Assembly (NCBI GenBank): GCA_017591395.1
Contig: WEDG01008815.1
Location: 1-64,000 of the forward strand
Length of the DNA: 64,000 nt
Source: Schistocephalus solidus
Taxonomy: Eukaryota; Platyhelminthes; Cestoda; Diphyllobothriidea; Diphyllobothriidae
Direction: 5' to 3'
Positions within the stretch are counted from its first letter, which is position 1. The number at the start of each line of letters is the position of its first letter. Below are positions 370-56,567 of the stretch, piece by piece. Below the pieces are notes generated by a model. The model was not told the origin of the DNA and ran no database searches. It worked only from the letters and a program-made list of their open reading frames with translations. Made by a program: the position numbers and the translations under genes.

Positions 370-2690
370 TTTTGCGCTCAAAAAAATGCTTTGATCCGTA
401 GCTTTTAATAGCGGAGGAAAATTCCTGGATAGCATGAAACGTCGGATTTTGCCCCATGTAGCACCGTTTTTCCATCAATAAACCTATCTGAAGTGAACTC
501 TATATTATTCAACAGCTTTCTTTGCATCAATACAATAAAACAAACAAAAATAATACCTTAAAATGCGTGTCCTGCTACTTCCTCAAATTCTGATGTAGAC
601 ATTTTATGAGTTAGGCCATCTTCTTTACCTGTATCACCTAGGCTCCGGTTGGCAGCGTGCCAGGATGCCCAACTCTTCGTCTGCTATAAAAAGGGATAAA
701 AACCGTGATGTGCCATATTCTGCAGGGCTATTTCTCAGCACTACTGCTGTCAGATTCCTCCTGCTGAGTGCCAGGTCGTCTTTGGACAAATTTTTTATTC
801 CTTAGTGGTTTTTTTAAACGTCATCTCTATCCTACATGACTGTCCCGGCATTCTTATTTGTCTGCCCCACTACCTCACTCTTTTTCGGTGACTATCTATC
901 TCTGTGATACGTTCGAGTGAGAATTTGAGCCGTCAGGCCGATAAACTTCTTGTTCCTGCGATAACCTCTTCTGCTCCTGAACTTATCGATCTGTTGGAAT
1001 TGCAGGATGAGATACAGGCTTTCGGTCTAAACCTTCACTTTTCCCGGCCCAGGTTTTGGACAATGGCTGGCTAAAGATCGCGATTAAGCCAGAACTAGGC
1101 ATTCGAGGCTTATGTGTCTTTGTGACTAACACTTTTAAACTTCCAAGCTTTTTCTATCCAGGCCAGATCATATAAGCTTGGTTAAATCAGTTAAGAGCCA
1201 AGTTTCATTACTATGCTGATTTTTCTTTCGCTATCTGAATCTTTTTCTTGAGCGTTACGGAAAAGCGTTTAAGATAGTTCGCCTAGCAAAATTAAACAGA
1301 AAAAATGAAGGAATTTTTAATACGCCAGTTTTATGCGCAGGAACTAAATCACGATTGATTTGATTGATCATCGTAAAGTTTGTGAAATTTAGAGTAAATA
1401 CCTGCTTGTCCATCCCATTAAGCAACGGACAAAGGATAAAACCGAATATTTTCGCCCACTTGAAATCAAAATTACTTTCATAATGCGTACTCTGTCAATA
1501 CCCGTATAACTAGCTTAACCGAATGGAAAAAAATTCATATATTTTATTCCTTAACATATCATTCTGCGATTTCTTCTAAAACGTTCAGATTATTAGTAGA
1601 GTCCTGTGGTGGTATTGGATCGATTTTTAACGGGGTTCTTCAAAGAGAAAACGTGATATTTTCGTTTAATTTCAGATCTGTGCATTGCAAATTAGAGAAA
1701 TGGGTTTAAATGACTTCCTTGGGAGGTTGACCGCAAATTCCATTCAAAATGACGTTTTGTCTTTTTCAACTCGCTTGAGCGCTGCTTCTTCCATTTATTT
1801 TGGGTTCGTCATCATCAGAGGGAAAAGCTTTCTCATAAATGATGAGTTCCAGTTTTTATACGCAGAGAGGGATGTAAAAGAGGTCGGCTCCAAGCTAAAT
1901 AGCTTCGTTGGGTTCTTTTCAGTCGCACGGATAACCGCACAACCACCGTGTTGGTGACAGATTCCCAGTTTTCTCATCATTGTCACACAAAATCACGTCA
2001 TGCATGATAGGAAAACCTATTTTTCAGTCAATTGCAATGTGGTTACGCATATACTTCTAAGTGCTAGCTAGTGCCGTGTTCCAACCCGATGTGTTGCTGT
2101 TTCGAGAGAACATTGCTCGGGCTGCTGAGCTTCGCGCGCTGCTAAACGTCAACTAACAATCCTCAGCTATCTTATGAAACGTTGATCGGATCGAAGAATA
2201 GCATCTTGTATCAAGGGGCATCATAAATTACCACTGGACCACGTGTATGATTTTAAAAAGAAGTATTTTTCGATTTTATTTTTTTACTTCGCACTGATAA
2301 TGTTATCGCAGTCCTCTTTAGGTTTTGTGCTTTCAGTCTTGTCCAAAACCATTTCATGCCAAGCCTGTTGTATCACCAAAGAAGAAACGTACAAGTCAAT
2401 TTCCGATTTTTATATCATTATGCCGTCAATTTAATACAGGCGAAATGATATTGAGAGCACCCAGCCTTGCAATATATCTTATCGGAAAACTACTGCTTTC
2501 GTAATTAAGTGGTGTGAATCCAAGCACCTTTTCTGCGATTCCGTCTAGACAAGCTCTAGGAGACTGTTCTGCTATAGATGGAACCGCGACTGGTTTGTAA
2601 GACGTTGTTCTAAAACTTGGATCGTTAACTGGGTCAGACTGACTCAGCTGCCGCTGGTAAGACAGACACATAGGAATCCCGCACCGTGGT
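370..2690. other. No gene seen
   Basis: This is AT-rich sequence with only short stop-bounded frames. The longest is about 90 codons near 1685-1957, with no splice-flanked coding signal and no motif that I recognise. It reads as intergenic or intronic DNA, possibly with old repeat relics. Confidence 0.4.
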
Positions 2691-2840
2691 CATACAGGTA
2701 GCGTTGCACTAATTTCCAGGAGGGGTAACTATTGTCGTTTCCTAATCTTAACCTTAATAATAATCCAAATATTAACCGTAACCTAAAACCGAAGCCCTTT
2801 GAGAATTATCGTAACAGGCCCGGAACGGGGAGATCCTCAT
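2690..2840 (+). repeat. Dispersed repeat family R3 with degenerate telomere-like core, copy 1
   Basis: A block reading roughly 'ctaatttccaggaggggtaac' leads into an irregular CCTAA/TTAACC-type run at 2742-2795. The same order (a 'ctaaattccag..gggtaac' lead-in, then CCTAA-like repeats) occurs near 28630-28710, so this is a dispersed family and not a chromosome end. Confidence 0.45.
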
Positions 2841-2987
2841 TCCCATGATTTGCCCTGCAGCTGGTTGGCAATCTTGGGCAAACTTTGGCTTTCATATGCT
2901 TGTACTTGTTACAGTGGTGGACACGCCTGATCTAGCTGGCTTACATGATGTCGTGAATGGTAACTCTTCACCCGTGTTTGTCTGCAG

Positions 2988-3358
2988 CAGCGGACCTCGA
3001 TCATCCTACCCATTCTTATTCAGCGACCATGATCCAATACCGAAGTAACAAGATCCAACCAGGTGTAAAGCTAACCTTTTCTCCAGATCCTCCAGGTGGG
3101 CAGCGGTTTCGAATCGAGGGCAGAACCACTGCACTCACCCAGCAGAAGACGATGAAGAATGTGCTCAAACCAACTCAATCGGCTTTCTTCAAAGGCCTGA
3201 TCTATCCTTGCAAGGCAGGCACAGCGGGTAGGGTCTGTCTTATTCTAAACGAAGACGGTGTATTTCACTCGAACTATGATCTGCAGGCCACAGCGTTCAA
3301 ACATCCGTTCTCGTACGAGGGTGCTTACACTTATCCACGCTTCTTCGGTCTTAAGTAA
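2988..3358 (+). CDS. Unidentified coding-like exon, probably 3'-terminal
   Basis: A good acceptor (pyrimidine-rich, ending TCTGCAG at 2987) opens a frame of about 123 codons that ends in TAA at 3356-3358. The frame enters in phase 1 and starts AADLDHPTHSYS. Base composition is richer and more codon-like than the flanks, and the translation is compositionally normal, with no low complexity, no membrane segment and a tail ending in GLK. I do not recognise the family. It may be the last exon of a + strand gene lying mostly upstream of the window. Alternatively it is an internal exon using a donor such as the GTAGGG at about 3230. It is not clearly connected to the abLIM gene further right, although the entry phase would match. 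No clear AATAAA follows closely. Confidence 0.42.
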
Positions 3359-3359
3359 A

Positions 3360-5845
3360 AGCGATATCCGCAACTTTATCCTGCCCTGTAGTGCCTAACC
3401 TACATAATGTCACTCGTGCAGCAACAGCCGTCATTTTTGCCTCAGCTTTCAATTTATTCGTTTTTTGTGGTGCTGTGACGATTCTTTCGTTTACTTTATC
3501 CAAGACGTTTTCGGGAAAAAAGTAAGTTTTAGCGCAACTCGTTCCCTCGTCTGCTCGAGTGGTAACGATTTGTGGCTGTTTCTCTTCAAATTCCTATGTT
3601 TGTGCATTTGGGGATTGTTGTCTTGTAGTAAAGGATTTTGAGTGATGGCCTGTCTTAGGATCGTTGTGAGGACGTAATGGGTGTCTAACATTCCATGTGA
3701 ACTAGTTTGATTTAGCGACTGTAAGCTCCTTTTGCACGGGCATACTGGTTTGTGAGCCGTATTTTAGAAGTTTCCATCTAAATCATGTAGTCTTGCACAA
3801 GCCTTGGCTATCTTCCTTTGCACGGGCTCACAATCCTTACCCAATCTCGCCCAGTGAGTTTGATTGATTATTCTGGTTTCGGTGACCACTACCTAGGTAA
3901 ATACTTCATTCCAGGTAACTTTTTGGAAGTTGGAAACCCTTCTTCAAGGAAGCTTAATTGCATTATTTTGATGATTTCCTTTTATTAGGCTATGCATAAT
4001 TTCAGTCTGACTGGTGAATGTGATCCTCCTGAACTATGCTACAATGCTGTGTAACGTCGTTAACTCGTCTTTCAACCCCCGTCCCTTTTTACTGTCCTAC
4101 CGGACTGCGATTTGCTTCCGGAATTTAGGTAACGCACCCGCTGACTTGTATTTTGCTTCGGAAGGGCAGTAAATGTCGCCTCTTCTATCCAAAAAAGTCC
4201 CCAGTGCTTTTATTCCTTTAAAGGTTACTGACATTTAAATGGCTAGACGAGGTTCGTCGGTAAAATTAACCCGTGGGTCGTCTGCAGGTGCCCTGTCCCT
4301 GGTACCCTGTTCGTATTTGCTTTTGTTCGGGGCATCCTTGGAAAACGCTGCTCTTGACCAATAAGGTCATTTCTTGAAAGCATGTACATTGATTTCCCCT
4401 CGATCGCGAGGTTTATATTCCAGAACCATCACGAAAGGTGAAAACTTTCAAGTTGAAAAGGATATGCTTAGGTGCTTATTTTTATATAATTAAGTTCTTA
4501 TAAACTCACCCGCTTTCCTTTAAACATTTCCTGCACAGTTAAGCAGCATGAACCCCTTATATTTTGTGTGATATACGGTAAGATCCGTTGATTCTATGCA
4601 TAAAAACGCACGGCTTATACGCTTCAAACAAATATACCTACTGTTTATCATTGAGAAGTTACAGTTAATACGTAAGACAGCCGTCTGCCAATAGTTTCCA
4701 GTGTATGAAATCAACTAAGGTAGCAAGTATCAGGAAGGAAAAAGCCCATTGACCGCAGGGACGTGCTAACTAGCCAACAAATCTACGATATATATTTAGA
4801 AGGTCGAAGTGCGATATAGCGAGGGACTACTGTATTGGTAGAACATCGCATGTGGTAAACAAATTGGTAGCGCACGCAAGTTCACTTGTTTGTGCTGCTT
4901 TTAAACTTTTTTAAAATTCTTAGTGAGATGCACCAAGAAAACAGTTGCGTTTTTTCGAGGTTGTTTTAAGAATTCCTAAATCGGTGTAAGTCTAAAGAAG
5001 CAGTCTTCATGTTGCCCATTGAACAGTGTTCATGCAAGGTAAAAGTCATGTGAGGCTTAGTTTTTTTGTGTTTGGAACCTAAGTGGCATGGGCGGATTCT
5101 GCTATAACCATAAGCATCCTGATGATGTTCCTAGATGGTGACTCTTTATTGCAGATTCCGCATATTACGCGCTACCCGCTTTTTGTCCGTCTACTCAGCT
5201 TAACTGCAAATAGTTCGGGTGTGCCGGTGCGTTAGCATCGCCACATCGTACATCCGGCTAAGCTTTTCCTTAGTATGCCTTGGACAGTAATGTGTAATCC
5301 TTGATAATTTTATCGGCGGAAGTAGTCCTCCCATGGGCCTCTCTCTGTCTGTTTCAACATGCCGCCACTGGATGCCCGGCTCACCATCTGCGAATCGGTC
5401 ACAAATAAAATATTTAGCGTTTTATCTGCCGCAAAATCCGCAGTAGTAAAATCCAGTCTTGGTCTAGACCCTGACAGTCCTCGCCGAAGCTAGTCGTAGT
5501 GCACGTGTATATACCTTCTGTCGGCCAATTGGTGGTATTCATCGTTTTTCTAGAGGGTTTTTATACTAGGAAATTTTGAAAATTGGCTTGCAGAGGCGCA
5601 TGTGTTTGTGCATTGCCGTGTTGCGCAACATTAAGTTTCTATAGATATACTTTTACGAGTGAGGTTTCCTTGGCAAGACTAATCAGGGTTCTCGAAGCAT
5701 AACAATTTTATCTGTCAAAAACGCTCCTTAGCCGTTTACCGGAAATTGTCTCTCAATCCTAGACTCGAAAATGAAAATATCTGTCTACCTGTCAAACATC
5801 TTCAGAATTCCAGATTATTTGGGGAACTAGGGTTGATAGCAATAC
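3360..5845. other. No gene seen
   Basis: Only short frames of 60-66 codons with no domain are present. There are no clear splice-bounded exons, RNA genes or repeats related to the families elsewhere in the window. Confidence 0.4.
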
Positions 5846-11600: not shown

Positions 11601-14600
11601 CCATGTTGTTTTTTTGTTGCTTTTGAAGTCCTTTTGCCTCAGGTAACAGTCCTTTTTTGGAAGGACGGTAAAAACTTTAGAGCATACAGTTCTTGTCAGC
11701 GAAAAAAAGGCACTCTATGATCGACCACCTGGTCTTGTTTGAGAAACGGCCACTTATGCCTTCATTTCATTTAGCAGTTGGACTGCGATGCTTGCAGTCG
11801 AAGGTGAAATATTTAAGAAATGCAGAAACAATTAATATTTTATTTGTCACTTTTTGTTTTTCTTTTATATCTGTTTCCACGAGCATCTTCTCAACATTTT
11901 TCCATCTTTTGCTTCCGAACTGGTGGCTCGGCGCATTTTATCGCCTACCGAGTACCAGTTTGCTAAGTTACCGTGGACGAACAAACACGTTTTCTTTGTA
12001 CGACTAACCTTGACTTTGGAATCGCCTGTTGATGTGCCTTTATTTGTATTTCCAGTGGGTATTTTTCATAATACGAGATTTCACTAAGTTTAAAATCTTG
12101 TAAAGTTACGGTAAATAAGGAGTTTACATATGCCTAACTATCGTCCGCAGCTATCTAGCAAAGTAACTGAAATATACATAGACCTACAGGTTACTGGCAT
12201 AGTCCCTCTTGCAAAACTATCTTCTGTCTGCGCTAGGTTCAAACAGTATGAATATAGAGAGGTCATGTTCATTTAGGTTGTGGCTTCGACTTCGGCAATA
12301 GCCTCAACCAAGAACGGCGTCTAACTTTTACCATCATATGAGGAGGGGAGATCTCGCTGGACGATGAAACAGATGCCGGTGGAGTATTAATTCCCTCCGC
12401 TGAAGTTGCTAATCAATGCCCTGCCCATGGTGCTTGGACGATCGGCCAAAAGTCCTAACAGTTTTGGACTCAGAGCAGGAACACGAGAGCATGCATGTGT
12501 GAAAAGAATACCATGCACTTAGGGTGCCAGCCATGTTTGCAGCGAAAATCTGGCGCTTCTCAACACGGATCGCGACAGTAAAGAACCGAATTATGTCAGT
12601 CCAACAAGTAACTAAGCTTTCATGGGCCAACCTTATATTCATTTAGTTCGTTTGATCGGAAATTAAACGCTTCTGGGGTGAACCGGATACCGTGCCATTT
12701 CAAATTCTAATAAAATGGGGTCAACACTGATACACTGAAGAAACTCGTGTTTCTCTGTCGCGTTTTTATGAAATCTTGAAGGGCCATCGTTTAAAAACTC
12801 GCTTAATCTGTGGGTGCTCTGTTAAATAACGGTTAGTTCCGTATTATAAAAAACTTCGAAGGACTATTTTTAACTCCTCAAAAATTATCCTATTCTAATT
12901 ATATGTCAGTCCTGAAACACGGAAGCGTTCGGTGGCATTCTTCTTCATGGAACAGCTGCCTGCACCAAACCTCATTAAACGCTAATCCAAATTTTTGGCT
13001 ACACTTCAGATGGGCAAATATAACTTAATTTCACTAATTAAACTGAAAAATAGGAAAGGTTAGCGTAATTATATACCTTAGCTTCATACACAGTGGCGAG
13101 TTGACTTTTGAACTAGCAATGTTTTAACTGAATATTCCAATATCCTGTCCATAAAATGTGTGGTTTTCTTTTACAATTCCTTGGTGTCTGCATAGCCACA
13201 AGTTTTAATCAAAGAAATGCAGAAAATAATAAATTTGGGTACTCTATTTGAACGTTACCATCTTCAGCATTTTCACTTAAACTGACGAAATATTTTGGTT
13301 TTGAAAGGCCTAGACTTGCTTAGTTTTTTAAGCATTCTTTTTTGTAGTTATCCTCAAAAGGTTTAAGGCAACTTTTATATATTGTCAAGGATGGATGTTC
13401 CATTATTTCTTACTAAATGGCCATCGGCAGTTGCCATGGGCCGCACAATACGATTTGTAAGCAGCATAGATACATTTTGAGATAGTGGATTACGAGAATA
13501 ATCATGATGCTGACTCAAACTCTCAATACTTTCGTCTTAAGGGTACAAGATCTTCTTTATGTGTAATTTGCCCTAACGAATGTGTAATAAATGTATTGTT
13601 CCATCTTTTCGGTAAAATATTACTAAATCTATGTGGCTATTAAAATCAGCAAAATGCGTAGGTACTGCCTACAGGCTACGTTTTGGTCTAATATTCGATT
13701 CGTTGAAATGGCTCTCATTTGAATCATCAGCGTGCCGGCATATGTTGTCAGTTTTGCAATCTTGTTTAAATAATCTTTCCATTTAAATGTGTTTCAGCCC
13801 ATTTCGGTGAAATCTGTATGAATTTTCAAAGAAAGCGTATTTTTAGAGTTGAGTTCTATTCCGACTTAACATTCATAGGTAGATGGGAAAACGGTTTTCT
13901 CGTACCATGCCGAAAATCTACGAAGCATGAATAATGCTGTTGACTTATAGTGATTCAAGTAGCGGACTTATATTCGTTATAGGTAAAGAGTGGTTTAACA
14001 TTCTAGGATCCTAACAATGTCCATATTCATATTTTTGAGAAGTTCTAAATTATCCTCCTTCGTAATATCTCTTGTACACTGCAAATTTCTTTTACCTTAT
14101 GAGATTGGCATGCTTTTTATAACAATTACACTCGATTAGCCATTTCCGAAATCCATCTTTTGTCTTGCGCTTTTTATTGGATTGTTTGTGAAAATATTTG
14201 ATCCTATGGGTAACCAATATCAGTTGAATTTCTTTTTATGCGGAGAGATAACTTTCTAAAATATTGTGTCCAATCACGTTCGGCTAAGTGACTCCTTCTG
14301 GTCAAAAAATAATGTTCTCGCTTCAGCAGTGAAGAAGCACATGGTCAGTCAAAACGCTACTGGGTGCTAACTGGGTCAGTAAACTGGATAATGTAAGCGA
14401 GGTAGTTAGAGAGGTCGCAGTCCCTAGCCTGCCGGTTTTGGTGTAAAAAATGTATTTTGTTCGTCCCACAGACCTAACAGAAGCAGAAGCACTGGTCCAT
14501 GATTGGCTAACACTGTCCCTATAATTTTAATTTGGTTGCACTAAAATGGAAGTTTAGTATCTCGTTCGCAAACTTATCCATCATAAAAATCGTGAGGCCC

Positions 14601-32068: not shown

Positions 32069-33283
32069 GTGGGTTCAGTAGTGGGCCCATGTCAGGAAAC
32101 GCACAACGAGTACATAAATATTTGCTGCTTCTTAACTAAGTGTTTATTTTTTGTTTCCTGTTTTCTTTTGGCTCGGTTGATAGGACTTTTTATTCCCCCT
32201 TTTCAGTAATTATTGTTAACTTGCAGCACCAGTGTATATTATCCCTGTTACTCATTTCTTTACCCTCATCAGTTACCAAAACCTTTTGCCTGTACGACAG
32301 AAACTGTGCTTTGACGAGGTTAAACTTGGAAACATATCTTCTTTGGTATTTTTTTGTGAATACATCTATTCATTCACGGCTTTCGGGAAAATAACTACTT
32401 AGTCTTTATCTACTTGAGACTATGGAGCCAAAATATCAATTAATGCTCAATTACCAAAGTATTATCGAGAGGAGTAAAAGTACTCTTCTAAGTCATTATA
32501 CAGTCCAATTTCTCGCTTTTTTGGTCGCAGATCCAACATTAAAATGAAGGTATATAAATTGGTTTTAGAAAACTATTTGGCTGACTGTAAGTAACCAACT
32601 GGAGGATGGGAGTGCCTACAGATATCTTTGCTAGCTGATAGTTAGGACGTTTTGCAAGGACTGTTTAGAAGGATAATGCTAAAGCTTTTGGTGACAACGA
32701 AAAGACAGTAATTAGCGCAAAACCTGAGACTGCATCCTCAGGAGCCTAGTCAATCCAACCCCTGGTCTTGAAGTTCATTCCTCCTACGCTTCAATAAACC
32801 AGGCAGAGCAAACGTTTGCATTTGTTTTGATTGGACAACAAGCAGATCGGGATGAAGCCAAGTGAGGTGTTGACTTGAACGTTTCGGTCAGTATTGCCTA
32901 GTCAAGCCCGTCACAGTTTTTCACTCTTTTCGCCTTCATATTTTCTACTCTACCCCTCATTTACTTCTCCCTTCTCGGAGCTTAAGCCAGTTTGGGTGTT
33001 GAGGTGACGTGCTATTACAGCTGTTTAACAAGAGACTAAAAGTCGAATTTCTGTTCGTCTCTTGGCTTTACCTTCACTGGAAACTTTTTGGGTGGTTAAG
33101 CATCATATTGCAAATTTCAAGACAACCCGTGATGATACCTTACATTTGTCCTAACTCTAAGAATCGTCGTGACAAAGAGGGATTTTCGACTACAGACTGT
33201 TGTTTCTGTTACTTTTAAATGGATGCCAGGTCATGGCTTGGGTGTAAAATATTGCTTTTTAAGTATAATGCAAAAGACAATTT

Positions 33284-33323
33284 GGTGAGCATAAGTTAGC
33301 TTTCAAAACATTCTCGTCAGGCC
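33284..33323 (-). ncRNA. Hammerhead ribozyme-like motif, PLE copy A
   Basis: Read on the minus strand: GGC, then the core CTGACGA, a short stem II (G/T closing pair, loop AATGTTTT), then GAAA, a 3-bp stem III (AGC/GCT) around an 8-base loop, the cleavage nucleotide C at 33287, and ACC. The catalytic core residues are all present. Stem I has one C-A mismatch next to the core (GGC/ACC) and stem II is weak, so activity may be low. Hammerheads at PLE termini are established; this instance is read by eye. Confidence 0.6.
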
Positions 33324-34746
33324 TTTACATTTATATCACTGTGTGACTAAGTCAAATATGTGGGTAAGTAGAACAAATCGTATGGTTTTTAGGTTGAAGG
33401 AAGCAGGCGAAAAGGAATAAAATTGCAGTCCATCTTCTGATTATCGTCAGAGGGATGGCGGTCGCCAGGACAGGCAATTAGATGCGGGCGGCTGAATTGG
33501 TGGCTTTCGGCCACGGTAATTGCGGCGACTGTATAACGTTTTTTGAGTGCACAGGACCAGTTTGCGTAGCCTGATTACAGCTGTTTCTGCCGTAGCCAAC
33601 AGACGCTGTCCAAGGAATTTTTACTAGCTTGAGGGGACCTTGTAAATTACCCGGAAGGCTTTTTTCTCATCTATAAGATAGTCTGTGTCTACCACATGCG
33701 CGAGGATAGAGCTGTTTATGTTCTTTATCTGCCCCTTTCCTTACCATGCTGGAAGGTGTTCTCGTACTCTTTTGGACAAACGCCGGCTCGTGCGACCAAT
33801 ATATTCTGCCCCACAGGAGCATGTGAATGAATACATGCACATTGAGGTGGTTTGGATTGGCAGTTTGTCCTGGCCCCCTCCGTATAGACTAAGAGTAGTC
33901 GAGAACAGTACATGGGCATGGAAAAGTGCTCAATACAGTTTGGCTTAGGTGCCTTCGTTAGAGTTCACATGCTTGAAATGGACCCTGATGAATAGATTTT
34001 TCTTGTTTGCCGTTAGCAACGGCAGCTTTGGTGGTCTTTCGCTCATATTCTTAGTAATAAATCTATCTGGATATCCATTCTGTCAAAAATTGCTTTCTAA
34101 AACCTTAAGTTCTTCATAAATGCTATCGGCCGAGCAGATCCTTTTCGCCCTTTGTGTCAGACAGCTTACTAAATTACGCTTAAAGTTCAGCCGTACGAAA
34201 ACTCCCAAAGTGGGTGTATTGTCCGGACCGTGTCTTCTTACGATAGACACTACGTCGAATACTCCCGTCAGGCCTTCTACTCAGGAGCACGTCCATGAAA
34301 GGGAGCGATCCGTATTGTACCTCTTGTAGTGTAAATTTGATTGACGGGTGTGCCTGATTTATAGTATCCATTTCAGCCGAAAGTTCCGCTTGTTCAGATG
34401 CAAGCGCAAAGATATCATTCACGTAGTGCTTATAATATTTTTGACGGTTTATCTGCAGATGAAGTATACATTTTAAGATTTCGCATGAAGAGTTTATCAC
34501 ACAGTTCCGAGGCATGTGTTTTCTACAATATTCCAATCGCGCTGACCTACGTACGCCGTTTCCGTTGGCACCTACTAAAAGAAAAATATGTGTTCCAGCT
34601 GCGCCTGTGGTGTGCAGTCGTGGTATGTTGCATTTTTGTTGGGTTCTTCTTATTTTGGGCATAACCAAACGGATGACCTTATATGAGTAAGCCACTTCAG
34701 GATCCCGTAAACCTCTACAGATAACCACTACGGAATAGATTTTCAC
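33284..34746 (-). mobile_element. Penelope-like retroelement copy A (degenerate, 3' part complete)
   Basis: On the reverse strand this stretch encodes the end of a PLE reverse transcriptase. The frame at 34180-34746 includes HYVNDIFAL, the YxDD catalytic box with the first Asp replaced by Asn, then SIKFTLQEV and LPFMDVLLSRRPDGSIRR. The C-terminal GIY-YIG endonuclease region follows at 33650-33900, broken over two frames (pieces such as KGQIKNINSSILAHVVDTD). The element ends at a conserved 3' terminus that holds a hammerhead-like fold (33284-33323). Upstream of about 34480 the homology becomes unclear. Stops, frameshifts and the lost Asp make it inactive. It lies antisense in the 32069-42107 intron and is nearly identical to copy B over its last roughly 480 bp. 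Confidence 0.85.
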
Positions 34747-36142: not shown

Positions 36143-37640
36143 ATGGAATGTCAACCCAAGTTTTCCAATGTGCTATCGATTCGCACAAACTACTTAAGTA
36201 GAGTTGTTACTCCTACGTGTGGTTTGACAAAATGGATGTATGGGCACTTTAAGTACCTGGCAGTAGGCGCATCGAAAACCTTGGCTTCTGCCTATCGGTT
36301 TCTTGAACGGATAAAGCATGTGAAGTTAGAGCTATACGAATTCATGGTTTCCTTTGTTGTCGTTTTACTCTTCACCTCCATCCCATGGCAACAACCAATT
36401 AATGATGTGAGACAAATTCTAACAGAAAGCTACAAGGAGAGGGAAAAGCTCCTAAAGTCTGAAAATTTGCGTGAACTTCTACGTCATTGCCTCAAAATCT
36501 ACTTCACCTTTGGTGGACAAATGTAGGAACAAATAAAGGCACTTCCCTGGGCTCCCCCTGTCAGATCTGATTGTTTATGTGGGCCTCCAACGGACAGAAC
36601 ACTTAATCTTCATAAAATATCAACCAACGTTTTTGGCTCGTTATTTCAATTATACTTATGTCATTCTCAAAACATCTGGCATCGAGCACCTCAAAGAATT
36701 ACTAAACTTGGTTGATCCAAATATCCAATTCACGATGGCAGCTGAAACCAACAACCAACTTTCCTTCCTCGACGTGCTTGTGCGTCCGGTGTACAAATGG
36801 ACAACTGCAAACTACAGTATTCAGAAAACGCCAACAGCACGAAGCAAGCATTACACTTCAACAGCAATCACGTAGCTGCGTCTAAACTCTATTCCAAAGG
36901 GTATAAACACATCGCAGCACGCCAGTTGACAAAAGAGCTGAACGACAGTACCCTCATGGCCTCTTCCGAGCTTATGATTACCCAAGATCTTTCATCAACC
37001 AAAGCAAGCGCCGAGTGAACAGACGACGGCCAAAAGGACAATAACCCGAAGTCAAGATGGCTGTTCCCTACATAAAAGTATTCTCCGAGGCAGTCTCTCG
37101 ACTGTTATCTCCCACCAGAGTAGGGGTAGTTCATCGACTTCAGGTGACAATTCGTCGTCGTTTAATGCAACCCAAGGATAGACTGCCCCTACCGAATCGT
37201 CCGCAGTTGTCTACCAAATATGTTGTAATTATGGGGACTGCAAGCAAGGTGGGCAAACTGGACGATAATTTCTGACACGCTTACATGAGCACAAACTGGT
37301 GGCTCGTAGAGTTTTACCAAAACGCACAGCTTGCAGCTCATATTGGAGAGACTGGCCACACTTTTGGCATTCAAAGATCGACCATCATAGGCCGAGGAAC
37401 CTCAAAAGCCGTACGACTTACGCTTGAGGCATGGTATTTAAATGCAAACGCTATAACAGGTATCTAAACCTACTAACGTCCTATAAGGTCCTGTGTCATT
37501 ACATGCATAAAGAGGAGGACAAGATGCTTACACCGGAACTAAGGCATAAAAGGGTAGACGGCCCCACGACGAGCACACCGGAAGAGGAGGCCGGCTTACA
37601 GGTACCCTCAACCGATTTTTAGTTTCCCAATACCAGCGGC
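36143..37640 (+). pseudogene. Penelope-like retroelement copy D, decayed RT and GIY-YIG endonuclease
   Basis: The forward strand shows a PLE polyprotein broken by stops and frame changes. It begins with a segment like the conserved fingers region (PTCGLTKWMYGHFKYLAVGA). RT motif A follows with the catalytic Asp lost (FVVVLLFTSIP where DVTSLFTSIP is typical), then LRHCLKIYFTFGGQ. After a frameshift come FTMAAETNNQLSFLDVLVRP and a cysteine-rich linker. The GIY-YIG nuclease comes last, in two frames: GQTGR-stop-FLTRLHEHKL, then IGETGHTFGIQRSTIIGRG. The TRLHEHKL and ETGH signatures place it in a different PLE lineage from A, B and C. It lies in sense within the 32069-42107 intron, between direct repeats at 35025 and 38388. 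Confidence 0.85.
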
Positions 37641-42107: not shown

Positions 42108-42460
42108 GGGGTACGTCAAGCCACTTTACGGACGGCTTCCCGGCCACAGGATTCGGCTACCGGAATCACTCCGACGCAATGCAATACAGAGTTCGCTCAA
42201 GCACACTCATTGGTGGCTTACCTCCACCGTCCATCTCGGGGCTCCGGCCGGTTAGTCGTTCACCGGGCTACCACTTGTCATCTGAGAGTGGCAGCCGTAG
42301 TATGGCCCTTAACGGTGGAGGCCGTAATCGCTTTCCAAGGACTGCATCTGAGGGTCGCCGTACCGCCACTGCCGAAATTACACCCACTGCGCTGAGTGAC
42401 ATGGACTTCCCTACAGTGCAGAGCTGGCTGCGGTCGCCACTGCCCGCTGGCCAACAGAAA
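42108..42460 (+). CDS. abLIM-like gene, exon e (Ser/Gly/Arg-rich linker)
   Basis: The acceptor is GTTGCTTGATAG (42107) and the donor AAA|GTGAGC (42460/42461). The exon enters in phase 1, completing GGG from the previous exon, and leaves in phase 0. About 117 residues are encoded, rich in S, G, R and P (SHFTDGFPATGFGYRNHSD, then PVSRSPGYHLSSESGSRSM). It ends with a more conserved-looking stretch, LSDMDFPTVQSWLRSPLPAG. It sits where abLIM proteins carry a variable disordered linker before the headpiece. A second frame is also open across part of the exon, but it has no splice support. The exon is flanked by inverted PLE copies A (left intron) and B (right intron). Confidence 0.8.
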
Positions 42461-43811
42461 GTGAGCTTTTTCCAGTCTGCTAATGTATCAGAGCTCTTAT
42501 CTCCTTAAAAAATTACTTAATTTGCGAGTCCTTATGACTTGAGGGCTGATTTTGCAAATGAGTACGTTTTTCCGTCGAATGCGTGATTCGGGATCAAACT
42601 GTAATTTACTGCAATGTTTCTACACAACTTCCAGATGCAAAAATTGCGCTTTATTTGTTAACAACCTCAAGCTCATTTATTAAAGTGCGGCATTTTTTAT
42701 TTTTATCCCTGTAATTTGAACTTTTGTTATTGACCTGGTATGATCATGATTTGAAACGGCTCTGAAGGAGTGTTGCATTTCAGGTGTTTGAACAAGTAAA
42801 GAAGAAGGCTGTTCGATTGCCACAATCATTTTTATTCAGTTAAACTTTCCGACTCGTACTGATGTACATCCCCGCTTTTATCTCTGAAATTGACCTTCAT
42901 TAAGAATCCGAAAGCTCAAATGAATAAAGAAATGATTCAGGTGATCGAACAGGCTTCGTTTTCCTTAATTATTGAAACGGTACTACGTAGCATGGTTATC
43001 ACACTGGTCCGTCAGTGGGTTTGGGGTGACTAATTGCTGCCTAGAAATTTATGCATTACATCACCCGTTTAAATCGCTGAACAGATGAATGACGTGTATA
43101 TAGTAAATAGCTGCATAATTTACTAAATGTGTGAATCATGAATCGATGTTGGTTACTGTAAAAGACTGGAAAAACCAAAAGCCTGTTTCTTCCCTATTTA
43201 GCATCTTCAAATAATGATGCGCAACTAATTAAGATGCCTAATATTAGAGACTGAGCGTTGTTCAATCTGTTGTGATTTGAGCTATACAATGCCAAAACTA
43301 AACCCTCTTTCTTTAATGGAATGCCTAAACTCGTTATCCGTGAGGCATATTCGCAATTCGTTTTTATTACTATTTTTGCTCAATGCGATATCAAGCTGAT
43401 TTTTGAACCTCTATGAGCCGAATCATTTCATGTGTACATTTCGAGGCTATTGGCTGAAGCTTTCTTTCGAATTCTTAATAACCTCAGCATAATAGTAATA
43501 TGAAAAGCTGTTTGCATACAGTTAAACAAGGCACGAGTTAGTCGAGAATGAACAAAAAACTATGATCCTTCGATTTTTTTATCTGCGAAAACTAAACGGT
43601 GTCTTTATATTAGGCATTTTTTAGAAAAGCATTGAAAGTGATGATATCACGATTTTATAACTTTCTTGTAAAGCAGGAAGTTAAGCTTCATCTTCCTGTG
43701 ATCTGTAGAATTACTCAAGTGTCTGCCAGTTTCAAACACTGGTCCGCTGACGATTGTTTGCTCAAGTAAATGCATGCGCTGTTAGAATCCCCATAAATGC
43801 TACTATGATCA

Positions 43812-44310
43812 AAAGAGTATGAGAACACTTTACAGGATGGCTAGGAAAGGGGCAGATAAAGAACATAAACAGTTCTATTCTCGCGCATGTGTTAGACACA
43901 GACCATCGTGTAGATGTCAAAGAGTCCTTCCGGGTAATTTACAAGGTCCCTTAACCTTTTCAAAATTCCGTGGAAAGCGTCTGTTGGCTACAGCAGAAGC
44001 AGCTGCAATCAGGCTACGCAAACCGGTCCTGTGCTCTCAAAAAAAACTGTATGCAGGCGCCGCAATTACCGTGGCCGAAAGTTATCAATTCAGCTGCCCG
44101 CATCTAATTGCCTGTCCCGGCGGCCGCCATTCCTCCGACGATGATGAGAAAACGGACCACAATTTTGTTTCTTTCCCCTCGCTCCCCACCCTGACAACCG
44201 TACGATTTGTTCTACTGGCCTGCATATTTGACTTAGTCACACAGTGATATAAATGTAAAGGCCTGACGAGAATTTATCGAAAGCTAACGTATGCTCGCCA
44301 AATTGTCTTT
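43812..44310 (+). mobile_element. Penelope-like retroelement copy B (5'-truncated 3' end)
   Basis: This is a sense-strand insertion in the intron between exons e and f. It starts abruptly within the GIY-YIG region (GKGQIKNINSSILAHVLDTDH in frame) and runs through the C-terminal coding remnant (TAEAAAIRLRKPVLC) and 3' sequence to the hammerhead-like terminus at 44260-44299. Nucleotide by nucleotide it follows the reverse complement of 33284-33770 with modest divergence. A 142-codon frame across it (43819-44247) is in the wrong frame and is not a gene. The abrupt 5' end is typical of incomplete target-primed reverse transcription. Confidence 0.85.
44260..44299 (+). ncRNA. Hammerhead ribozyme-like motif, PLE copy B (intronic, sense)
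   Basis: From 5' to 3': stem I strand GGC (44260-44262), core CTGACGA (44263-44269), stem II closed by G44270-C44278 around AATTTAT, then GAAA (44279-44282). Stem III is A44282-T44295, G44283-C44294 and C44284-G44293 around loop TAACGTAT. The cleavage base is C44296, and GCC (44297-44299) pairs perfectly with GGC. All invariant core bases are present, giving a type I layout with the minimal stem III known from PLE hammerheads. It lies on the same strand as the host gene, so it would be transcribed inside that intron. Confidence 0.68.
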
Positions 44311-46061
44311 TAATTTTTTTAATAAGAATTTTTTTGCTTCTTTACAAAGAATTACTTAACTAACAGAAGCCGTGGTACTTCTCCTACCTTGTAAAACATA
44401 TGTTTTCCGTTATGACAAGGTGTGAACTATGATCTCTCACTATGAGAAAACATTATACAACCTGTGCTGGTCCCCTCAGTTATTTAAAACGTCAGGACTA
44501 CATCGAGTAGGGATGCCAGGCCTATACACGACACTTAACATTCCTATGCGAACTTTTAAGCTCTAGTGAATGCAGGCACACCAAACACATGTAAAGATAA
44601 TGAGTATCCTGAGAATTCATAAAAACCACAATGACTTTTATAGCGGCAGTTTCAATATCATTATTTCAACGTTTATGCATGTCTGCAGGGTAACGGCAAG
44701 ACTAGCGTCCATGCATCCGCTATACCAATTTGCGTAGAAGAGGGGCGCAATCGAAAACAATTCAAACATTCAAATAAGTAATTAACACCTTCACCTCTGC
44801 CATGGAAGCATTCACATTTTTCGTACTTCCACAGTTTTCCGATAGTTCAGGACACCGACTCCCTTCCCATTTGTTTCGTTTCTGCCTTTCTTTTTCAGAC
44901 TTTCTTTTTGGATGCCTGAAGTTTTCATTAATTTCGTCGCAGTTTCCTAAGGATATCCCACCTATTTTACTGAGTGTCCCATTGAGGGCCCTTGTTGAAA
45001 GAAACACTTTTTGCCGCTATGCCTGTTTCATTTAAGTACTTCAAATTGACCTGGTTGTTCACGTTCATTCTGGAATCCGTTTCACTGGCGTTAGTGTATT
45101 TCATCCATAAGTTGTGGGAGACCACAGAAAGTTCGCAAGGTTATCTATAGCAGAAAAGGTCTTGCCTAAAGCACTTTAACACCGACTGCCTTCATCCATA
45201 AATACTTCACGTTAAGTCATTTACCAGTACCCATATCCAACGATCCCAAATTCTTCCCATTTTTGAAAACACCCACACTTTTGTCAGCTATTCTGGTTGT
45301 CTTATCATGTTATAAGCTTGATGTCTAAGTAAATGAGGTAATTCGTGGTATTTTATGATCTCTGCTCAATGCATCAACTTCTGCTTTCTGGTTTTGGGTT
45401 ATCCTAAAATGGACGATACTATATTCGGACACATTGTCACAAAAGTTGCTCCTGTGTGTCCCCTGTTGATGATGGTCCAACAGTTCACAAGAAGCAGAAT
45501 ATGAGAACCTTCTTTTGTTCGCCTTTTATGCTCAGTGCAGATACTTCATTATTTTGCGATGACAATTAACATTCCTAAGGAATCTAATGGTGTTTGCCTT
45601 TTGAATGGTGCTATTTGCGATAGCCCCTTTCGATAAGATGCTCAAGAACAAAAATAAGATTGTAGTATTGGGCGCAGTGACATCCTGCAAGTCTAGACTG
45701 GAGCTCTGTTATAGGATAGCCATTGCGTCTGCATCCAATTTTCTATTGTCCTATGAATGAGTGGTATGGGAAGTTAGATTAGGGTCGGCGTTCTGGAGTC
45801 TACTCAATCATACTCAAAAGAACACGTAAGTTATCGTGGATTTGCATGGCCCTAGCGATCATCGTTGAGTTCGGGATAAAACCTGTTAGTCAACTACCGT
45901 ACTTTGACACCTTTTGCTGGATATAATAAGATCGCCATTTGATTGTCTGGTTTTCTTGTCCAAGCTTTGAACCGATTTTTTTACTTGTTGTGCACTTTTC
46001 AATAGAACTTTAATACACATCATCCGCTATTTGTCATATAGCCTTCCTTTCCGTTTTTTAG

Positions 46062-48172: not shown

Positions 48173-48286
48173 AATCATCTCTCACCCGAGGAATTCGAAC
48201 GTCTTTTTGAGATGACGCCTGCACAATTTCACCGTCTTCCAGAGTGGAAACAGAATGACCTCAAGATGCGATTGGACCTTTACTAA
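48173..48286 (+). CDS. abLIM-like gene, terminal exon (villin headpiece C-terminal subdomain)
   Basis: The acceptor CATCTCTTACAG (48172) is followed by a phase-0 frame of 37 codons and TAA. The peptide starts NHLSPEEFERLFEMTPAQF and continues RLPEWKQNDLKMRLDLY. It is a clear villin headpiece core with the three hydrophobic-core phenylalanines (EEF, RLF, AQF) and the W-K-x-N-D-L-K motif that binds F-actin. The usual K-K-x-x-L-F end is replaced by MRLDLY, so the last aromatic is Tyr. Preceding splice phases agree, and this is the end of the gene. A candidate AATAAA lies far downstream (49295), with no close one obvious. Confidence 0.92.
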   Translation, partial: NHLSPEEFERLFEMTPAQFHRLPEWKQNDLKMRLDLY

Positions 48287-53735: not shown

Positions 53736-54486
53736 CATGCTGTGTACGCTCCTCCAAACTTGAATTTTCACACCTGATCTGTTAAAATACGTCTTTTATT
53801 TATTTTCCTAGGTTGAAATGTTTTCTAACGTGAAAGGAAGTGAAGGGTCTAAAACAAGATATAAATATACTGAATCAAGCCCAACATTGAATGCGTCTGA
53901 CGGGTACTTTGTTAAGATAATCTACTAGCAACATGATACTTATTCGCAGTCAAGATATGGAGTAAAACAATGATTACACCTAGTGACTTTATCAGTATTA
54001 ATTTCCTACGGTTCCTTTTGGAGCATATTATGCCTTAGTCAGTTTACATAGGTTTCACTGAACACAAATTTTAGTATAACAAGAAGGTTCTTTTCGGTCT
54101 GAAGGGTTTTTGCACCTCAAAGGATGTGCAAGAATGAACAAATAGATATTTTAAATATATTTTTTCCATTTACTCTTGCCCGCCACTTAGGAACTTTTCC
54201 ATGCAACTTCCATTTTAGCAAGATATATGAAGAGTTGTTTGAATCAACATGTGCCTTTAGTGGTATGACATTCCTAACACCCAGTAAGTCAGGTGGTTTC
54301 ATCGACGCCCAGTCGGATGAGTGTTACTGTGACGATACAGGTTTAAATCAAACTAGTATCCAAATAAGAAATCAGCAATGTCATTCAGTGAGTAAAAGGA
54401 AGGGACACGAAGATAGGGTGTTACCATGCCTTTCTTCCACTGGGCATTTAAATTAGGAACTAGTTTGTATGATTCAGAAGACGAGT

Positions 54487-54526
54487 TGGTGAGTCTGCCC
54501 GTGCCTTCGATAAATTCTCATCGGGC
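54487..54526 (-). ncRNA. Decayed hammerhead-like 3' terminus, PLE copy C
   Basis: On the minus strand the order GGC, CCGATGA, GAATTTATC, GAAG, GGCA..., CTCACC lines up with the hammerheads of copies A and B. The invariant U4 is changed to C and the last A of GAAA to G, so catalysis should be lost. It supports common descent of the three termini. Confidence 0.5.
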
Positions 54527-55925
54527 CAGTACATTTATATGGGAACGGGGTACAAGCTAAAACATACGATCTAAAATGTCCGTCTAGTCTACAAGTAAGT
54601 CGTGTTAATAGGGGGGGGAATAGGAGGTAACTGGTTAAGTGGCAGTGAGGGTTTGGTGGAGTTCTTCACGGAGGGAGTGGGAGTGGGGAAGAGGATTAGA
54701 TACGGCGTGTAGTGCGTGTAGTTAAGCCGTCATTGGCCCTGCTACGTGCGGAGCTTGTAGCAGGTTCTTTTGTGCGTACAAGACCGGTTTTCTCAACCTG
54801 AAGGCGGTGGTTTTTGCTGTGGCTAACAGCCACTGAAAACACCTTATGATTCACACGGAAGGCTTTGTTAGGATCCACTTGTTTCCCGGAATCAATTATG
54901 TGTGCGGGAATAATGCTATTTATGCTTTTAACTTCACCTTTTCTTAACCATGCTAGGAGGTATTCCCTTATTCTTTTGGATAGGCGCCGACGCGTGCGAC
55001 CAATATAACCCGCTCCACAGGAGCAAGAAATGAGTAGATGCACATGGAGATGGTCTGAGTCAGTCACCTATCCTTACCTTCTCCGTGTAAAACCGGGTTG
55101 GTTGAGAATAGTATCTGAATTCTCACAAAGTTATCGTTACCGTAGCGACCATAGTGTTTAAGCATATTGATCTGATCGCTTAACTGGTATTTCTCCGGCT
55201 TGCCTATGAGGACGCTGACTAACAGATTCCCAGTGGGTGAGCTCAGAGCAAAGCCATCTATTTTTCTGTAAAGTTGGTTGGCAAAAAGAAACTACGCGCT
55301 TATTGGGGATCTTTGTAATAGTTCATTTAGTGCATTCGTCTGTATTCCTATTTCTTGCTGATTTTTCGCTAGAAATTCGCAGATGTAATCGACTGACTCA
55401 GTGACCAGCACGTTTGTAAAAAGTGATTTGACATCTTAAAAGAGCACCATCATACCGTTTAAGTTTATGTCTTCGAAGTCATCAATAAATTCGAATGTAT
55501 CCAGCTGTAAGGGCTTGAGTTTCTCTGACAACCATTTTGATATTGCATGATACGGTGAGTTGCGCATGCCTAAAGTCGAACGAACTGGCAGGCCCTCCTT
55601 GTGGCTTGTTGGTAGACCGCAGGATGTGTGTGCCTACTGGTTGGCGGCACTCGAAGTCAAAGTCATTTATGACACCCTTTACGTGCAGTCTTCTTAAGCA
55701 GTCGGTTTGTACATCAAGACGAAAGTTAACGTATTTATGGTGCGTAGAACACATAAGGAATGCATTATGTATTGCTTTTCAGAACTCTCCCAATATTGTG
55801 ATGACGTTGTGGGGTTGTGTATGTCAGTTAGGTCAAATGATGAGTATTTCGCGCACAGTCCTTCGCGATCTCCTTTGAAAATGTGGACGTGAACTTGTTA
55901 AATTCAATGCAAGTGCATGTAGTTT

Positions 55926-56567
55926 GGACATTTGAAGCTGACGTGAATTGTCGGATAGAGGGAAATTTAGTTTCATAGTTTCCCTTGCTATTTTAGTCTT
56001 TTTCCCTTTGCAGCAATCAAACCTTTTCTGCCACAATGTCGCAATTAAAATGTTCAAACTGATGGGAGGAAACAGGCAGCGCAAACCTCTATGTGGTTTA
56101 AAAGAAAAATGCATGTGTGTGTCAGGGCGACAAGCGACACCCTGAGTTCCGTATTGACACATCAGAAATGAAACCAAATCTGATTTGCTGAAGTTGGCTC
56201 TCGACATCTGAACTGGACTAAGGATCTGAGCAACAACTCCAAGCATACCATTAGCGAAGTGTCAGCTAAAATGCCGTCGTAAGGTACTGCCGATTACAGA
56301 GCAAAATTAAATGCAATCAGCGTAATGGAACTTACAACGAAAACCTCCTGGAACGATTGTATTTTAAGTAAGTCAGAGTGGCTAACAGATGAATCCTAAT
56401 GGTCAACAGGGTTCGTGCAATCATCTGCATATTGCCAGATTCGAGGTTGATGGAATGTCAGCGTTGAAATAATAATAAAATTAATGGCTTTTGCTAAAGT
56501 GAGAATTTCCATGAAAATTCCATTTGAAATTTGAAGAGTTTTGAATGCAGGTATCAGAAAAATCACG
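55926..56567 (-). repeat. Left arm of 640-bp inverted repeat
   Basis: This arm is inverted relative to 59293-59930. The match is close over the whole arm, from 'gacatttgaa' at the outer end to 'tgcaggtatcagaaaa' at the inner end. A shared frame on the minus strand includes KGKKTKIARETMKLNFPLSD. It runs on at 55926 into the RT region of PLE copy C, so I interpret it as that element's 5' end. Confidence 0.8.

Follow-up and report, generated by a model that had tools for sequence, protein, structure and literature searches.

A Penelope-like element hammerhead motif lying sense in a probable headpiece-gene intron of Schistocephalus solidus

A complete hammerhead core on the strand of a host gene raises the question of whether the gene has acquired a self-cutting intron or whether a retroelement has left its own ribozyme there. 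Such a motif occurs at 44260-44299 (+) in the window, which here means the whole 64,000-nucleotide stretch of contig WEDG01008815.1 that was analysed. The reading favoured here with high confidence is that a Penelope-like element (PLE) supplied the motif as its own 3'-end hammerhead, through an insertion probably copied from uncut template, and that the host pre-mRNA carries it as a probable passenger.

The motif was recognized as a minimal type I hammerhead from its letters, from a descriptor evaluated with shuffled sequence, and from 671 places in the genome. On re-reading, the letters and coordinates given in an earlier note on this DNA were found to be correct. The 5' strand of stem I, GGC (44260-44262), is followed on the same (+) strand by the core CTGACGA (44263-44269), GAATTTATC (44270-44278), the core GAAA (44279-44282), GC (44283-44284), the loop TAACGTAT (44285-44292), GC (44293-44294), T 44295, C 44296 and GCC (44297-44299), with the cut predicted at 44296/44297. 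The invariant core bases are complete and a U-H precedes the predicted cut, here and in the family consensus; the list of invariant hammerhead bases used is the familiar one and agrees with the papers cited below. Stem I has 3 bp (GGC/GCC) and stem III has 3 bp when A15.1-U16.1 is counted, so that the core and stems that had been described are borne out by the letters; stem II, which had gone unmentioned, has just 2 bp (G-C and A-U) closing a 5-base loop. The sole difference from the family consensus hammerhead is at position 7, which is free in hammerheads. The predicted cut site lies within a CpG (TC/GCC), and the variants TTGCC and TCACC recur among copies, as CpG decay predicts. Just 5' of the hammerhead is a TATAAA-like string (44248-44253, +) found in both PLE families described below, with a putative promoter role; were it a TATA box, transcription beginning some 30 bases downstream would start within the motif.

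The motif belongs to an insertion designated copy B (43810-44332, +), which is 5'-truncated and comprises the end of the coding part, the pseudo-LTR (pLTR), the hammerhead and a tail. Aligned to the unit junction of a tandem locus elsewhere in the genome (L009), copy B showed 88.4% identity over 524 columns, and the alignment stops 36 nt past the cut; the tail (44297-44332, +) matches the start of a following PLE unit. Two further copies are present in the window. Copy A (33267-34173, -), of the same A/B family and antisense to the host gene, has a hammerhead at 33284-33323 with 6/40 sites altered, and copy C (54472-55057, -), of a sister family, has a hammerhead-like motif at 54488-54527 with U4C and with GAAG replacing GAAA. 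In a self-comparison of the window, 43810-44311 (+) matched 33774-33272 (-) at 86%; a second link, at 87%, joins 38 bases covering the 5' part of the copy B hammerhead to 54540-54503 (-). The comparison revealed no second sense copy, copies A and C both being antisense. A Pfam search of eight frames from the window, one a putative exon and the others PLE fragments, gave nothing above the curated cut-off. Separately, an open frame at 36537-36875 (+) resembles by eye the end of another PLE reverse transcriptase, and no Pfam family scored above cut-off on it.

The A/B family was then sought across the host genome (603,688,359 bases, or 604 Mb, in 8019 contigs). Of the 1851 first-look candidates obtained with a 201-base query, 40 were scored. 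With up to 3 mismatches allowed, the 40-base family hammerhead was found at 671 places, all perfect among the matches listed, and a 36-mer of copy B at 823 places, 20 of them exact including copy B itself; the reversed patterns gave 0 in both cases. The motif is therefore not a chance string, given 823 genome places against none for the reversed control. In L009, two hammerheads lie 2658 bp apart, each unit having the hammerhead at the pLTR-ORF junction, and contig C3034 contains three at spacings of 2656 and 2658 bp. Tandem units thus carry the hammerhead once per ~2658 bp, as seen in one pair and one triple. Between the two L009 hammerheads, a 623-codon frame (1382-3253) contains a reverse transcriptase domain (RVT_1, E 3.4e-13), and the next frame (3178-3891) includes the letters CSCGAEYIGRT, of the GIY-YIG type; this second frame had no Pfam match, and the NCBIfam model grpIintron_endo matched weakly (E 0.038).

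To locate insertion ends, A/B-family copies (L002-L098 minus L044, plus the window) were aligned to the unit junction and de-duplicated, and 4 matches were dropped with the end of the locus too near. At 105 distinct places the alignment crosses the cut; in 4 of these it continues for over 200 bases, and in the other 101 it stops. The stopping ends fall into two classes, one with its mode at 18 nt past the cut (37 ends at 18-21) and the other at 49 nt (44 ends at 40-53), with 51 ends at 10-30 nt, 49 at 31-60, one at 61 and none at 0-9. In the window, copies A, C and B end 20, 19 and 36 nt past the cut, respectively. PLE insertions characteristically end either with a tail of about 30 to 40 bp or without one, and the two classes show this pattern. 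Most sampled copies had been found by similarity that included the motif; 40 were picked via a flanking 40-mer alone, and in 38 of these the alignment extends 10 bases or more beyond the cut. In the remaining two, L091 and L098, it stops 1 base before the cut, and the only further match to stop short, by 44 bases, is an inverted piece in L014. Reading of L091 and L098, which are different places, led to their rejection as cleavage-made ends: they have about 85 bases past the motif in common, including a ATGGGAATTT string like the family's, and then diverge, which suggests a diverged subgroup. They also have altered motif bases in common and perhaps form a third subgroup with its own end. At six loci (L005, L010, L011, L017, L018 and L021), another hammerhead-bearing piece is found nearby in inverted orientation; it ends 18 to 26 bases past the cut, and the direct copy 41 to 58.

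With its reverse transcriptase domain, its tandem units giving pseudo-LTRs and its two classes of insertion end, the element is Penelope-like, and the motif is its 3'-end hammerhead; the PLE origin that had been proposed is backed by the copies, the tandem units and the domain. The end positions fit reverse transcription beginning inside the RNA, beyond an uncut hammerhead, and an insertion made in this way would therefore usually carry a complete hammerhead near its 3' end. New copies would arise by reverse transcription starting mostly 18-21 or 40-53 bases past the hammerhead, and most insertions would retain the whole motif; the ends are observed, and the mechanism is proposed by comparison with the element of Anolis. 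Copy B would then be a 5'-truncated insertion that landed sense in what is very probably an intron of a headpiece gene. A seemingly striking intronic ribozyme is thus explained by the PLE insertion mode, in which reverse transcription apparently starts just past an uncut hammerhead and most copies bring one along.

The closest parallels are in PLE systems, as far as the portions of the literature consulted describe them. PAc, a Poseidon PLE of Anolis carolinensis, likewise has a hammerhead at the pLTR-ORF junction and a reverse transcriptase; its insertions also stop beyond the hammerhead and may bear an extra 30 or so bases, and its GIY-YIG domain has a candidate counterpart in the GIY-YIG letters of L009 (PMC11167929). 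In that element, reverse transcription begins internally and a tail of 30-40 bp is optional (PMC11167929). In PAc, however, most reverse transcription begins 111-118 bp inside the ORF (PMC11167929), whereas A/B-family ends lie mostly 14-61 nt past the cut; for the A/B family, cleavage is a prediction. The minimal type I hammerheads of PLEs (Cervera and de la Pena 2014, via PMC6155905 and PMC7761336) resemble the present motif in their type I order and very short stem III, as well as in their location in the pLTRs of tandem units and their many dispersed copies; from these accounts no difference in kind is apparent, the sequence being particular to the A/B family. Animal non-LTR retrozymes also carry a type I hammerhead in a dispersed element, but they are non-autonomous, whereas the 2658-bp units of the A/B family are coding (PMC7229834, PMC7761336).

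Whether the hammerhead would cut was approached by predicted folding. For the lone 40-mer of copy B, the hammerhead fold was calculated at -1.9 kcal/mol against -4.6 for the best fold, with an ensemble probability of 0.0036 that falls to between 2e-4 and 6e-10 when 10 to 150 flanking bases are included. The family consensus 40-mer folds worse (3e-4) because a predicted hairpin covers the core. The copy B monomer is thus predicted to fold into something other than a hammerhead. Within the loop of stem III, ACGU is self-complementary. A double hammerhead formed by two copies was calculated at -9.7 kcal/mol against -3.8 for two monomers; the unrestricted best two-strand fold, at -15.1, is not a hammerhead, so the dimeric form is not the optimum. 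Weak predicted folding does not imply inactivity, because energy models omit tertiary contacts and protein. The hammerheads of PLEs are described as minimal, of type I and possibly cutting as dimers (PMC6155905, PMC7761336), and that of PAc cut only with its PLE protein present, according to the part of the report consulted (PMC11167929). Cleavage within transcripts of the element itself is probably dimeric or assisted by the PLE protein, and the motif carried by the host pre-mRNA is a probable passenger, slow-cutting or inactive.

An unlikely alternative is that the hammerhead is a dead relic throughout the family, kept through overlap with a promoter, with the start of the ORF or with a binding site for the protein that initiates reverse transcription. 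The TATAAA string adjoins the hammerhead, the stop-to-stop frame of the L009 ORF (from 1382) passes through it (1383-1422), and the hairpin predicted over the consensus core points the same way, as does the observation that hammerhead mutants of PAc left insertion in vitro unchanged (PMC11167929). The spread of the sister family with U4C in its core would also suit a relic. Against this, the A/B consensus retains the core bases and all three stems together, and PLE hammerheads have been reported in other animals (PMC6155905, PMC7761336).

A genome search for the sister family, to which copy C belongs, gave 1057 first-look candidates, 40 of them scored. The consensus of 30 aligned copies (loci L100-L128 plus copy C) reads GGC CCGATGA GAATTTATC GAAA GC ACGCGTAT GC TC GCC. 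Core position 4 is C in 29/30 copies and G in 1/30 (L128); the remaining core and the stems of the consensus are identical to those of the A/B family, so no compensatory stem changes were found between the two, and away from the motif and its immediate surroundings their pLTRs hardly align. The sister 40-mer was found at 308 genome places when up to 3 mismatches were allowed, 17 of them exact, against 0 for the control, and a few places among the matches listed carry the canonical T. A U4C variant of a viroid was reported to be much less active in vitro and yet to support infection (PMC3088659). The role of PLE hammerheads was called open by a 2020 review (PMC7761336), and the pair of families, one with a canonical core and one with U4C, forms a natural contrast that could help to show what these hammerheads do.

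A more speculative and quite improbable proposal is that PLE hammerheads here are protein-gated, the core hairpin shutting the ribozyme in ordinary transcripts and the PLE protein or a second copy opening it. If so, hundreds of intact copies, including copy B, would be tolerated in introns as scissors that work only where the element is active, and the near-fixed U4C core of the sister family would represent a slower form of this gated ribozyme.

The last exon of the host gene (48176-48286, +) encodes the C-terminal half of a villin headpiece (Pfam VHP, 5.8e-16) in 48176-48283, followed by a stop codon at 48284-48286, and this downstream exon supports the placement of the motif on the host-gene strand. 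Among solved relatives, the ABLIM2 headpiece scores best (4e-7), with dematin just behind it (5.4e-7 and 9.1e-7), a gap too small to decide between them; the description of an abLIM-like gene therefore holds as far as a headpiece gene of abLIM/dematin type on the + strand, and does not extend to ABLIM2 over dematin. Upstream, an inferred exon at about 42108-42460 (+) is an open frame bounded by an AG and a GT that resemble splice sites, and had no Pfam match; among five putative exon frames searched, nothing but the headpiece scored above the curated Pfam cut-off, and a search for the N-terminal half of the headpiece found no convincing exon among the candidates listed. The earlier placement of the motif between two exons is thus supported on its downstream side by the headpiece exon and on its upstream side is suggested by open-frame reading. 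It is very probable that the motif lies sense inside an intron, upstream of the last exon.

It had been proposed that the motif, if active, could act on this pre-mRNA, and in its fullest form the proposal is that of a co-opted ribozyme which cuts the headpiece-gene intron and tunes splicing, as has been proposed for the hammerheads of RECK and C10orf118 in amniotes. This is very unlikely, even with a sense orientation upstream of the headpiece exon and an intact core. Copy B differs from the consensus at 1/40 motif sites and 14/161 upstream sites and its surroundings have thus decayed by roughly 9% while the motif has otherwise stayed the same, but the contrast is not significant (Fisher p=0.31, or p=0.076 with the free position 7 dropped); for copy A the counts are 6/40 and 22/163 (p=0.80). 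In 35 copies pooled, counting only matches that covered both the motif and the preceding 50 bases, 33/1400 motif sites were changed against 267/4877 outside the motif. This difference was set aside as a sign of selection, most copies having been picked by similarity that included the motif.

Intact cores are also common in the genome. A set of 80 places was chosen by flank on contigs up to C3742, and 31 of them have a perfect consensus hammerhead. From the other 49, 39 were fetched and 10 left out; the core is complete in 22 and altered in 15, and 2 carry an indel, so it is retained in 53 of the 70 places examined. Another perfect copy, L060, lies beyond C3742, and 19 of the 20 places identical to copy B over 36 bases have an intact core, copy B included. 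Copy B is ordinary among family copies. An intact sense copy had been singled out as the point of interest, and it loses that standing among hundreds of near-identical copies, most of those examined keeping the core and ending past the motif. Conserved intronic hammerheads of amniotes have been published (PMC6155905, PMC3088659), and those of RECK and C10orf118 share with copy B an intronic position, very probable in its case, and a probable origin from repeats; cleavage in vitro and conservation across species are described for them (PMC3088659, PMC6155905), whereas copy B is minimal and known from the sequence of one genome. With no significant extra conservation, a disfavoured monomer fold and a PAc hammerhead that needs protein, regulation of the host gene by the motif finds no support here, and the preferred reading remains a PLE hammerhead carried in the pre-mRNA as a probable passenger.

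The possibility of a chance hammerhead-like string at 44260-44299 is negligible: core-only matches are fairly common and Rfam is silent, but the full descriptor is rarely matched in shuffled windows, the reversed controls gave 0 against 671 and 823 genome places, and aligned copies carry the motif at the same PLE position, so that the genome-wide copies rule out a chance origin. The bare core CTGANGA..GAAA gave 13 matches in the window against a mean of 5.63, a weak excess, and this pattern was rejected as evidence for being too loose. The full descriptor of core and stems averaged 0.017 loci per dinucleotide-shuffled window (300 shuffles, maximum 1), and in the real window it found copy B and one A/T-rich place at 13279-13343, for which self-comparison of the window gave no repeat partner. 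The Rfam hammerhead models, a check that the earlier note had proposed, had no match on the window or the locus (241 bases) at any threshold tried, with E up to 10, which formally speaks against the motif. They were equally without a match on the perfect family copy in L009 and on seven whole family loci. Their silence on copy B consequently says little, as the family copies tried were also missed; the Rfam models appear blind to this minimal class, and the copy B motif is confirmed as real and far from chance. Apart from the PLE copies, the window contains an inverted repeat, 55927-56561 (+) and 59927-59295 (-), of 635 bases at 97.5% identity, which may represent a recent duplication or a mobile element.
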